From Paracoccaceae bacterium (GTDB taxonomy: Bacteria > Pseudomonadota > Alphaproteobacteria > Rhodobacterales > Rhodobacteraceae), in contig JAFGXY010000043.1 of NCBI GenBank assembly GCA_016936395.1, forward strand, positions 118,015-182,014: a DNA stretch of 64,000 nucleotides, given 5' to 3'. Below the pieces are notes generated by a model. The model worked only from the letters and a program-made list of their open reading frames with translations. It was not told where the DNA came from and ran no database searches. Numbering within the stretch: position 1 is the stretch's first letter; the number at the start of each line of letters is the position of its first letter. Position numbers and translations under genes: made by a program. Below, piece by piece: positions 13,655 through 41,725 of this stretch.

Positions 13655-13708
13655 CCGGGGGGCTGTCTGCCCCCCGGACCCCCCGAGGGTATTTGGGCCA
13701 AGAGGAAT
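13655..13708 (+). repeat. Dispersed intergenic repeat A, copy 1
   Basis: CCGGGGGGCTGTCTGCCCCCCGGACCCCCCGAGGGTATTTGGGCCAAGAGGAA; shared with 34181 and 40030. Confidence 0.75.
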
Positions 13709-34180: not shown

Positions 34181-34227
34181 GCGGGGGCCAGCCCCCGCAC
34201 CCCCGGGGTATTTTCGCCAAGAGGAAG
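34181..34227 (+). repeat. Dispersed repeat A, copy 2
   Basis: GCGGGGGCCAGCCCCCGCACCCCCGGGGTATTTTCGCCAAGAGGAA. Confidence 0.7.
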
Positions 34228-38316: not shown

Positions 38317-38414
38317 CGGGCCCCCCTTTGGGCCAGTTTGGCCATGGCGCGGCAAAAGCTGCAAGGGTGCAAATTGTGCTTGGCGCGGCCGCTGCGGGCA
38401 GATAGGTTTGCGTC

Positions 38415-38456
38415 ATGACAACGACCTGCATCATTTGCTGCTGCATTACCGGCTGA
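38415..38456 (+). CDS. Candidate Cys/Ile/Thr-rich leader peptide MTTTCIICCCITG upstream of cysS
   Basis: ATG ACA ACG ACC TGC ATC ATT TGC TGC TGC ATT ACC GGC TGA; AGG about 9 nt upstream; 95 nt before cysS ATG. Confidence 0.65.
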   Translation: MTTTCIICCCITG

Positions 38457-38465
38457 CCTTTGGTC

Positions 38466-38518
38466 GCGCGGGTGCTTGTCAACATTTCCAATCCTAACGG
38501 AAGTTGCCAGACCCGCGC
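38466..38518 (+). promoter_or_regulatory. Hairpin in the cysS 5' leader
   Basis: GCGCGGGT (38466-38473) pairs ACCCGCGC (38511-38518); inner CAAC..TTCC / GGAAGTTG. Confidence 0.6.
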
Positions 38519-38551
38519 CGGGATGTGGCCTGCGCTTTGGGGATTGCGGAC

Positions 38552-40012
38552 ATGACGATCAAGCTGACCAATTCGAAAACCCGCCGCAAGGAGGTGTTCG
38601 AGCCTTTGGACCCCTCGAATGTGCGGATGTATGTCTGCGGGCCGACCGTCTATGACCGGGCGCATCTGGGAAATGCGCGGCCTGTGGTGGTGTTCGACAC
38701 GCTGTTTCGCTTGCTGCGCCATGTCTATGGCGCGGATCACGTCACCTATGTGCGCAATTTCACCGACGTGGATGACAAGATCAACGCCAAGGCCGCCGCG
38801 ACGGGCCGCGACATCCGCGACATCACCGATGAGACGATCGGCTGGTATCACGACGACATGGACGCGCTGGGGGCCCGGCGCCCGACGCATGAGCCGCGCG
38901 CGACCGAGTATATCGGCGCGATGATTGCGATGATCGAAGGGCTGATCGCCAAGGGCCATGCCTATGAGGCCGAGGGCCATGTGCTGTTCCGGGTGCGGTC
39001 TTACGCCGAGTATGGCGCGCTGTCGGGCCGGTCGGTTGATGACATGATCGCAGGCGCGCGGGTCGAGGTGGCGCCGTTCAAGGAAGACCCGATGGATTTC
39101 GTGCTGTGGAAGCCGTCGGAAGACGCGGTGCCGGGCTGGGACAGCCCTTGGGGTTACGGTCGCCCCGGTTGGCATATCGAATGCTCGGCCATGGCGGCGG
39201 AACTGCTGGGCGACAGTTTCGACATTCACGGCGGCGGCTTGGATCTGCAATTTCCGCATCATGAGAATGAGATCGCCCAAAGTGCGTGCGCCCATGAACA
39301 CGGGGCCTTTGCCCGCTACTGGATGCACAACGAGATGTTGCAGGTTGAGGGCAAGAAGATGTCCAAGTCATTGGGCAACTTCTTCACCGTGCGCGATTTG
39401 CTGGATCAGGGGATACCGGGCGAGGTGATAAGGTTCGTGCTGCTGAGCACGCATTACAGGAAGCCGATGGACTGGACTGAGAGAAAGCGACGTGAAGTTG
39501 AAAAGCGACTTGATCGGATGTTGCCTGCTGTGACGGCTGCAATTTCCTTCGGACTTGCACCGTCTGAAAACTGGCAGGATATCCCAAAAGGAATGTTCAT
39601 TTCTCTTTGCGATGATTTGAATACTGCTGACGCAATCTTTTCACTGGAAGCTGCGGCCGATCACTTGCTCCAAGTCTGCCGCGGGGAATTGGCACGCGAG
39701 GGACTGACATTAGAAAATGCGGCACGAAGGGCAGCGTTGGAGTTCCTAACGGGACTTGATGCTTTTGGCTTGTATAGCCTCATGCTTGATCGACGCGTAC
39801 GGCGAATGGATGCGAAAGAACAGTTGGACCAACTGCATCTAAGGTTTGCTCTTGCATATGAACATGCTCGCCAAACCAAGGAATTTGGCGACCTTGATGG
39901 CCTGAAAAGCGCCCTTATCGCCGCCGGCGTCGAAGTCCGCATGTCCAAATCTGGCGTTGAACTTGTGCCCGGCCCCGACTTCGATCCCGCCAAGCTGGAG
40001 GCGTTGCGATGA
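38552..40012 (+). CDS. cysS: Cysteinyl-tRNA synthetase
   Basis: [51 protein letters not shown]. Confidence 0.95.
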
Positions 40013-40029
40013 TGGCGCTTGCAGGAGTT

Positions 40030-40080
40030 GGGGGGCTTTCTGCCCCCCACGCCCCCCGAGGGTATTTCGGCCAAGAGGAA
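40030..40080 (+). repeat. Dispersed repeat A, copy 3
   Basis: GGGGGGCTTTCTGCCCCCCACGCCCCCCGAGGGTATTTCGGCCAAGAGGAA. Confidence 0.75.
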
Positions 40081-40090
40081 AGGGCTTGCC

Positions 40091-41725
40091 ATGCGTGAGC
40101 GGCTTTACCTCTACGACACCACCCTGCGCGACGGGCAGCAGACGCAAGGGGTGCAGTTTTCGGCCAGTGAGAAGGCGGTGATCGCGCAAGCGCTGGATGG
40201 GCTTGGCGTCGATTACATCGAGGGCGGGTGGCCGGGGGCGAACCCGACCGACTCGGAATTCTTTGCCGAGGCGCCGAAAATTCGCGCCACCATGACCGCC
40301 TTTGGCATGACCAAGCGGGTGGGGCGATCGGCCGAGAATGACGATGTGCTGGCGGCGGTGCTGGATGCGGGCACGCCTGCGGTCTGTCTGGTGGGCAAGT
40401 GCCATGAGTTTCATGTCACCACCGCGCTTGGCTGCACGCTCGAGGAAAACCGCGAAGGCATTGCGGCGAGTGTGGCGCATCTGGCCATCAAGGGGCGCGA
40501 GGCGCTGTTCGATGCCGAGCATTTCTTTGACGGCTACAAGGCCAATCCCGCTTATGCTTTGGAATGTCTGCGCGCGGCGATGGACGCGGGCGCGCGTTGG
40601 CTGGTCTTGTGCGATACCAATGGCGGCACGCTGCCCGCCGAGGTGGGGCGGATTGTTACGCAGGTGATTGCAAGCGGCATCCCCGGCGACCGCTTGGGCA
40701 TCCATTGCCACGACGATACCGGCAATGCGGTGGCCGGGTCGCTGGCCGCGATTGATGCCGGGGTGCGGCAGGTGCAGGGCACGCTGAACGGTTTGGGCGA
40801 ACGCTGCGGCAATGCCAATCTGACCACGCTGATCCCGACGCTGCTGCTGAAAGAGCCTTATGCCAGCCGCTTTGACACCGGGGTCAGCCGCGAGGCGTTG
40901 CGCGGGATGCTGCAAACCAGCCGGATGCTGGATGACATTCTGAACCGGGTGCCGCGGCGGGCGGCGGCTTATGTCGGGGCTTCTGCCTTTGCGCACAAGG
41001 CCGGGCTGCATGCGAGCGCCATTCTGAAAGACCCCAGCACCTATGAGCACATCCCGCCCGAATGGGTGGGCAATGCGCGGGTGATCCCGATGAGCAATCA
41101 GGCCGGGCAGTCGAACCTGCGCGCCCGTCTGGTGCAGGCGGGGATCGAGGTTGACCCGAAAGACCCGGCCTTGGGGCGGATACTTGAGACGGTGAAGCTG
41201 CGCGAGGATCAGGGCTATGCCTATGACGGCGCGCAGGCAAGCTTTGAGCTGCTGGCACGGCGCGAGTTGGGGTTGAACCCGCAGTTTTTCGAGGTCAAGC
41301 GCTACCGGGTGACGGTGGAGCGGCGCAAGAACAAGTATGACCGCATGGTCAGCCTGTCCGAGGCGGTGGTGGTGGTCAAGATCGGCGACCGCAAGATGCT
41401 GTCGGTGTCGGAATCGATGGACGAAACCGGCACTGACCGCGGCCCGGTCAACGCCTTGGCGCGGGCACTCGCCAAGGATCTGGGGCCGTATCAGGCCTGT
41501 ATCGACGCGATGAAGCTGGTCGATTTCAAGGTGCGCATCACCAATGGCGGCACCGAAGCCGTGACGCGGGTGATCATCGACAGCGAGGACGGGCAGGGGC
41601 GGCGCTGGTCAACGGTCGGCGTCAGCGCGAACATTGTCGATGCGTCGTTCGAAGCGCTGCTTGAGGCGATCCAGTGGAAGCTGATCCGCGATGTAGGCTT
41701 GCCGCAGCGCGAGGCTGCCGAATGA
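40091..41725 (+). CDS. cimA: (R)-citramalate synthase
   Basis: MRERLYLYDTTLRDGQQTQGVQFSASEKAVIAQALDGLGVDYIEGGWPGANPTD; GIHCHDDTGNAVA. Confidence 0.95.
   Translation: MRERLYLYDTTLRDGQQTQGVQFSASEKAVIAQALDGLGVDYIEGGWPGANPTDSEFFAEAPKIRATMTAFGMTKRVGRSAENDDVLAAVLDAGTPAVCLVGKCHEFHVTTALGCTLEENREGIAASVAHLAIKGREALFDAEHFFDGYKANPAYALECLRAAMDAGARWLVLCDTNGGTLPAEVGRIVTQVIASGIPGDRLGIHCHDDTGNAVAGSLAAIDAGVRQVQGTLNGLGERCGNANLTTLIPTLLLKEPYASRFDTGVSREALRGMLQTSRMLDDILNRVPRRAAAYVGASAFAHKAGLHASAILKDPSTYEHIPPEWVGNARVIPMSNQAGQSNLRARLVQAGIEVDPKDPALGRILETVKLREDQGYAYDGAQASFELLARRELGLNPQFFEVKRYRVTVERRKNKYDRMVSLSEAVVVVKIGDRKMLSVSESMDETGTDRGPVNALARALAKDLGPYQACIDAMKLVDFKVRITNGGTEAVTRVIIDSEDGQGRRWSTVGVSANIVDASFEALLEAIQWKLIRDVGLPQREAAE

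Follow-up and report, generated by a model that had tools for sequence, protein, structure and literature searches.

Upstream of the cysteinyl-tRNA synthetase gene (cysS) of a Paracoccaceae bacterium lies a very short ORF crowded with cysteine codons. Is it a regulatory leader, which amino acids would it sense, and at what level would it control the genes behind it? We studied these questions in a 64,000-nt stretch of DNA (hereafter the window) and in cysS loci of related genomes. Our main reading, to which we give a probability of roughly 0.6, is that of a leaderless regulatory ORF sensing both cysteine and isoleucine and controlling a cysS-cimA operon.

A conserved short ORF and its promoters

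The elements of the upstream region and the gene that follows it are:

38380..38408, + strand: promoter P1 of the leader, with -35 TTGGCG (38380-38385), a 17-nt spacer and -10 TAGGTT (38403-38408)
38415..38456, + strand: leader-peptide ORF encoding MTTTCIICCCITG and a stop codon, with 4 Cys and 3 Ile codons; predicted leaderless; conserved across Rhodobacteraceae
38485..38513, + strand: candidate promoter P2 in hairpin B (see below), with -35 TTTCCA (38485-38490), a 17-nt spacer and extended -10 TGC-CAGACC (38505-38513)
38552..40012, + strand: cysS, cysteine--tRNA ligase (TIGR00435, 426.7 bits)

The initial annotation described an ORF of 13 codons, four of them for Cys, located 95 nt upstream of the cysS ATG (38552), and the sequence is exactly so: positions 38415-38456 read ATG ACA ACG ACC TGC ATC ATT TGC TGC TGC ATT ACC GGC TGA, i.e., MTTTCIICCCITG. 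It overlooked that three of the 13 codons specify Ile. The check it proposed on orthologous leaders showed that the ORF and its Cys codons are kept in most Rhodobacteraceae while the flanks differ; starting from a set of 80 cysS loci, a Cys-rich short ORF was found in most members of the family, its stop codon mostly 77-140 nt 5' of cysS. A covariance model of the motif, built from 55 leaders, detected it in 166 of 199 Rhodobacteraceae genomes, usually as a single copy located at cysS, and in 171 of 198 genomes of the order; these counts are lower bounds, because several model-negative genomes carry diverged leaders that were found by hand (e.g., MTRLICICC, MGRVICIICI and MARICIICIPLAR). The source genome gave a single match and no further copies with this model; a simpler TGY-rich pattern also matched at other places. 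In the rest of the class the model had almost no matches beyond the order, and most of the weak matches outside the family fell within or over unrelated genes; two (L122 and L123) were truly upstream of cysS. The Cys codons of the leaders are dominated by UGC (TGC 305 vs TGT 19). There is certainly a conserved Cys leader peptide at cysS, which is not a product of chance, and that the leader is both conserved and translated is almost beyond doubt.

The -10 element of P1 ends 6 nt upstream of the ATG, which places the predicted transcription start at the A of the start codon. This arrangement was inspected in 111 held-out genomes, i.e., genomes not used in finding the promoter pattern: the distance from the end of the -10 to the ATG was 6-8 nt in 107 of them (96%) as compared with 21% in shuffles, the spacer was 17 nt in 91, and position -1 was C or T in practically all. 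Promoter position and the pyrimidine at -1 together indicate that the leader ORF is very probably leaderless. The second putative promoter, P2, has the extended -10 consensus TGCTAAGCC, of which the window version (CAGACC) is a weaker form. Of 122 sequences in which a -10 could be recognised, 118 have the TT of the -35 at a spacer of exactly 17 nt, and P2 was retained in all 11 examined loci that have no leader ORF. The conserved TTTCC and TTGCTAAGCC of the hairpin B loop fit this second promoter, whose predicted transcript would lack the leader as well as the 5' half of hairpin B. A transcription start downstream of 38415, taken by the initial annotation as grounds for discarding the leader, would be compatible with it, because a second conserved candidate promoter sits inside hairpin B.

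Isoleucine codons and linkage to cimA

The gene behind cysS in the window is:

40091..41725, + strand: cimA, citramalate synthase (TIGR00977, 576.7 bits, cut-off 450), the first isoleucine step from pyruvate

Ile makes up 30% and Cys 23% of the leader peptides. Relative to shuffled composition, Cys was enriched 8.3x and Ile 5.6x, with Leu at 0.2x and Val at 0.1x; general hydrophobicity does not account for the bias, since Leu, Val and Phe are under-represented. Counted back from the stop, 4.4 of the 5 codons from -4 to -8 encode Ile or Cys, codon -4 is Ile in 95% of the leaders, and most have CC at -6/-5. At codons -5 to -7 Cys and Ile exchange for each other, despite the two base changes needed. 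A peptide that works through nascent-chain chemistry or metal binding rather than codon supply, in the manner of Cys-rich copper-responsive uORFs, would fit a Cys-rich hydrophobic product with a strongly conserved terminal run; it is nevertheless very improbable given the Cys/Ile swaps at the same positions, the variable Cys spacing, the depletion of other hydrophobic residues, and the amino-acid genes downstream. As a separate observation, the Ile codon at -4 (38445-38447 in the window) is AUU in 153 of 168 leaders and AUC in 5, a near-fixation that may reflect codon speed or an RNA constraint; the latter would count against our main reading.

Among the 52 leader loci with enough sequence, cimA directly followed cysS in every one, as compared with 11 of 22 loci without a detected leader (p = 2e-7; this and the p-value below are indicative only, since related genomes are not independent). 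In 13 of those 52 loci the two genes overlapped or lay at most 5 nt apart. All the leader-bearing loci checked had cimA next to cysS, except those of genus g107 (see below), and it also came directly after cysS in three leader loci of other families. The same gene order is frequent in the class at loci with no leader; probably, then, the cysS-cimA pair came first and the leader was acquired later. In Roseobacter denitrificans, 80% of the isoleucine flux runs via citramalate (PMC2749216).

Two genera in which cimA is missing from some or all genomes bear on the purpose of the Ile codons. In genus g24, a leaderless Ile/Cys leader was present in 38 of 39 genomes with cimA and in none of the eight without it (p = 3e-8), three of these eight being Paracoccus loci assigned there by identical cysS context. 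In the genomes without cimA, cysS stands in a different context, behind another gene, and the co-loss of leader and cimA may represent one rearrangement. Genus g107 lost cimA, and its leaders (MDWICCLCRA, MDWICCLCRA and MEWICCPC) kept their Cys residues with one Ile each; at most one Ile was found in all g107 leaders vs 2 of 169 others, a case that corresponds to one lineage with shorter peptides. In G045, where cysS and cimA are apart, a recognisable leader was found at neither gene.

These patterns suggest that the leader is likely to respond to Ile as well as to Cys. The initial annotation proposed a Cys leader with refolding RNA and no intrinsic terminator; the Cys codons, the refolding RNA and the missing terminator (in more than 160 genomes) stand, and a shortage of Cys probably makes up only half of the signal, because the peptide is equally a leader for Ile and cimA is the gene linked to it. 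The opposite extreme, a leader that is chiefly an Ile sensor for cimA with cysS as a passenger or regulated as a consequence, is suggested by the Ile at codon -4 in nearly all leaders and by a leader that follows cimA better than it follows cysS. Such a reading is improbable, as Cys is the most over-represented residue and three Cys codons were kept in the genus that has no cimA. We slightly favour dual sensing in the form of a single leaderless peptide of 8-14 codons acting as a Cys/Ile OR-gate for cysS and cimA, whose Ile codons mostly vanish without cimA.

Two further observations concern this region. In three other alphaproteobacterial families, Ile/Cys-rich uORFs lie upstream of cysS-cimA (L262, L263 and L264), with the peptides MTVFGIIIDIIISGC... 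(Cys-poor), MSNAHTIFICPIICR and MLGSTFCIIDWIICDR. The cysS-cimA gap of the window (40013-40090) contains a GGGGGGC/GCCCCCC hairpin and an element CCCGAGGGTATTTCGGCCAAG, with no U tract; the CCCGAGGGTATTTCGGCCAAG pattern recurs at 13682-13702 and, weakly, at 34201, far more than chance would give.

Mutually exclusive hairpins and the terminator question

Two overlapping hairpins were found around the end of the ORF:

38447..38474, + strand: hairpin A, formed by the last codons and the stop (5' arm 38447-38458) with 38462-38474; excludes hairpin B
38466..38518, + strand: hairpin B, the one reported initially; GCGCGGGT (38466-38473) with ACCCGCGC (38511-38518), and inner pairs CAAC/GTTG and TTCC/GGAA

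The 8-bp stem GCGCGGGT/ACCCGCGC with inner CAAC..TTCC/GGAAGTTG pairing was present as initially described; hairpin A, which overlaps it, had been missed. Both hairpins use one common arm (GCGGG), which B pairs with GCCCGC, and they are mutually exclusive. The hairpin region of the window was not more stable than shuffles as a single sequence (z = -0.42), and the evidence for the hairpins is therefore comparative. Matched arms of hairpin A gave -10.9 kcal/mol vs -8.85 +/- 0.21 with arms swapped between species, and those of hairpin B -18.2 vs -16.3 +/- 0.28. One pair of hairpin B changes from G-C to C-G in 16 sequences, with a covariation score of 0.139 vs 0.085. The outer pairs of hairpin A presented no column-wise covariation, because their 3' side also belongs to hairpin B.

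In the modelled RNA, the two hairpins are near balance when no ribosome is present (P(A) 0.53, P(B) 0.38) and shift to 0.19 and 0.65 with a ribosome stalled at codon -5. Hairpin B is favoured by stalls at codon -5 or -6 but not by one at codon -7; the latter finding counts against the stall model, as does the near equality in the window of the hairpin B fold and the fold that blocks the Shine-Dalgarno (SD) sequence (-37.9 and -38.7). On balance we infer, with good confidence, control based on ribosome stalling.

The initial annotation saw no U-tract terminator, and indeed none follows hairpin B in the window, in agreement with the leaders of more than 160 genomes. At least 5 T within the 8 nt after the hairpin occurred in 14 of 163 leaders for A and in none of 163 for B, and the 4 nt that immediately follow A are mostly C/G. 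No terminator-like site was found in the window. A U/C-rich stretch does occur 5-18 nt 3' of hairpin A in the family, reduced to TTT in the window, and coincides with the -35 of P2. An intrinsic terminator after A or B was rejected, as neither stem is directly trailed by a U tract. Of the features of a trp-type attenuator, the leader has the regulatory codons and the mutually exclusive hairpins, and no intrinsic terminator.

This bears on a published prediction. The initial annotation knew of no Cys leader described at cysS in this group; the uORFC-8-2 motif (Brewer et al. 2021, RNA Biol, PMC8632094), located upstream of cysS in Rhodobacterales, has tandem Cys codons and was proposed to control termination, and the window leader very probably belongs to it. 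They share the position 5' of cysS in Rhodobacterales, a conserved AUG, tandem Cys codons (mostly UGC) and two stems, for which ribosome-mediated attenuation was predicted. The published text deals solely with Cys codons, with cysS, and with an intrinsic terminator carrying a U run. The leaderless start, the Ile codons, the cimA linkage, the putative SD-opening switch (see below), the internal promoter and the absence of an intrinsic terminator go beyond it. The first stem of uORFC-8-2 is described as holding the Cys codons; hairpin A comprises the last codons (Cys at -2 in 49%) and not the CC pair. The Cys half of the signal was thus predicted in 2021; the Ile half, the missing 5' leader and the second promoter are new here. 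As proposed for uORFC-8-2, a hairpin and U run would terminate transcription, and a stall at Cys codons would allow read-through to cysS. Besides its publication, this Cys-only attenuator has in its favour the U/C-rich stretch that begins about 5 nt past hairpin A. It seems rather improbable all the same: T runs are rare after A, where C/G mostly follow, and absent after B; the window has no terminator-like site; the U-rich TTTCC is accounted for by the P2 -35 at fixed spacing; and the Ile enrichment and the cimA association would be left unexplained.

Access to the cysS ribosome-binding site and comparison with known systems

If transcription is not terminated at a hairpin, the switch may act on two elements near the cysS start:

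38489..38494, + strand: CAATCC; with hairpin A formed, it can pair with GGATTG (38541-38546) across the cysS ribosome-binding site
38538..38543, + strand: TGGGGA, Shine-Dalgarno-like sequence of cysS

The structure of the window with A forced also pairs the cysS AUG. Modelled SD opening in the window costs 6.5 kcal/mol when A is formed and 3.0 when a ribosome is stalled; the values were 5.5 and 3.0 kcal/mol across 55 species, and 5.57 and 3.02 in 108 held-out genomes. In silico, the SD was more blocked without a leader ribosome than with a stalled one in 91-93% of the species, beyond swap controls: in the held-out genomes, the difference of 2.55 kcal/mol compares with 1.71 +/- 0.14 and 1.69 +/- 0.07 after swapping. 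Since swaps retain 1.7 of the 2.55 kcal/mol, most of the effect would be a conserved leader property, and about a third would come from specific loop-SD matching. The SD pairing may be partly incidental, because most of the effect survives tail swaps and P2 constrains the sequence of the B loop. The modelling makes control at the SD rather than control of termination a somewhat better supposition.

According to the mechanism we propose, transcription from P1 would begin with the A of the uORF start codon, and ribosomes would initiate without a Shine-Dalgarno sequence. With Cys-tRNA and Ile-tRNA plentiful, the ribosome would complete the 13 codons and depart, the last codons and the stop would form hairpin A, and hairpin B would be prevented; the freed B loop and 3' arm would then pair with the cysS ribosome-binding site, keeping translation low. 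If either charged tRNA were scarce, the ribosome would stall at one of the Cys or Ile codons that lie 3-5 codons ahead of the stop, where it would cover the 5' arm of A; hairpin B would then form and the cysS site would open. P2, inside hairpin B, would supply a basal transcript without the leader.

For the last step, Rho is the chief competing explanation: with the leader ribosome gone and cysS untranslated, Rho would terminate transcription within the region left untranslated, and a stalled ribosome or hairpin B would block it. The missing intrinsic terminator and the pyrimidine-rich stretch after the ORF would suit such control, and Rho has been proposed for terminator-less mycobacterial cys leaders (PMC1262725). 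We consider it unlikely, given that the two states differ in SD opening by more than the swap/shuffle controls, which Rho does not require; it can also work jointly with translational control. Between the two, we regard control at translation as probable.

A search of the window with Rfam 15 gave a chance match only. In the ilvGMEDA and thrABC leaders, one peptide with codons for several amino acids controls the matching genes; these have intrinsic terminators, leaders translated from an SD, and amino acids that belong to a single pathway. By comparison, the combination of Cys and Ile at a tRNA synthetase gene plus a gene for biosynthesis is unusual. T-box leaders of Gram-positives also raise synthetase levels on uncharged tRNA, and they bind the tRNA directly with no need for an ORF. 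Closer in form are the mycobacterial polycysteine leaderless sORF attenuators (Canestrari et al. 2020, Mol Microbiol; via PMC9094748 and PMC13236596), which are reported to be leaderless and to have Cys runs and, as here, no intrinsic terminator and proposed translational control. Their transcripts start at the ORF start codon, which is also where promoter position and the -1 pyrimidine place the start here. They belong to another phylum, precede Cys biosynthesis genes rather than cysS-cimA, and are not known to carry Ile codons.

If our reading is correct, one tiny ORF would set tRNA charging and synthesis for two amino acids of different pathways, the presence or absence of cimA would offer a clean evolutionary test of the purpose of leader codons, the published terminator model would become testable, and annotation would be predicted to miss leaderless dual leaders across Alphaproteobacteria. 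In E. coli, an excess of cysteine inhibits threonine deaminase and thereby causes isoleucine starvation, and the leader may have to do with this coupling of Cys and Ile metabolism.

The region between the leader and cysS also varied in length and content. Three leaders (L209, L214 and L215) had an extra hairpin of the GGUCGGG..CCCGACC type inserted between the leader stop and the GCGGG arm, and those of genus g24 (L297-L335) presented a shorter gap, with the stop mostly 51-78 nt 5' of cysS, so that the switch may be more compact there.
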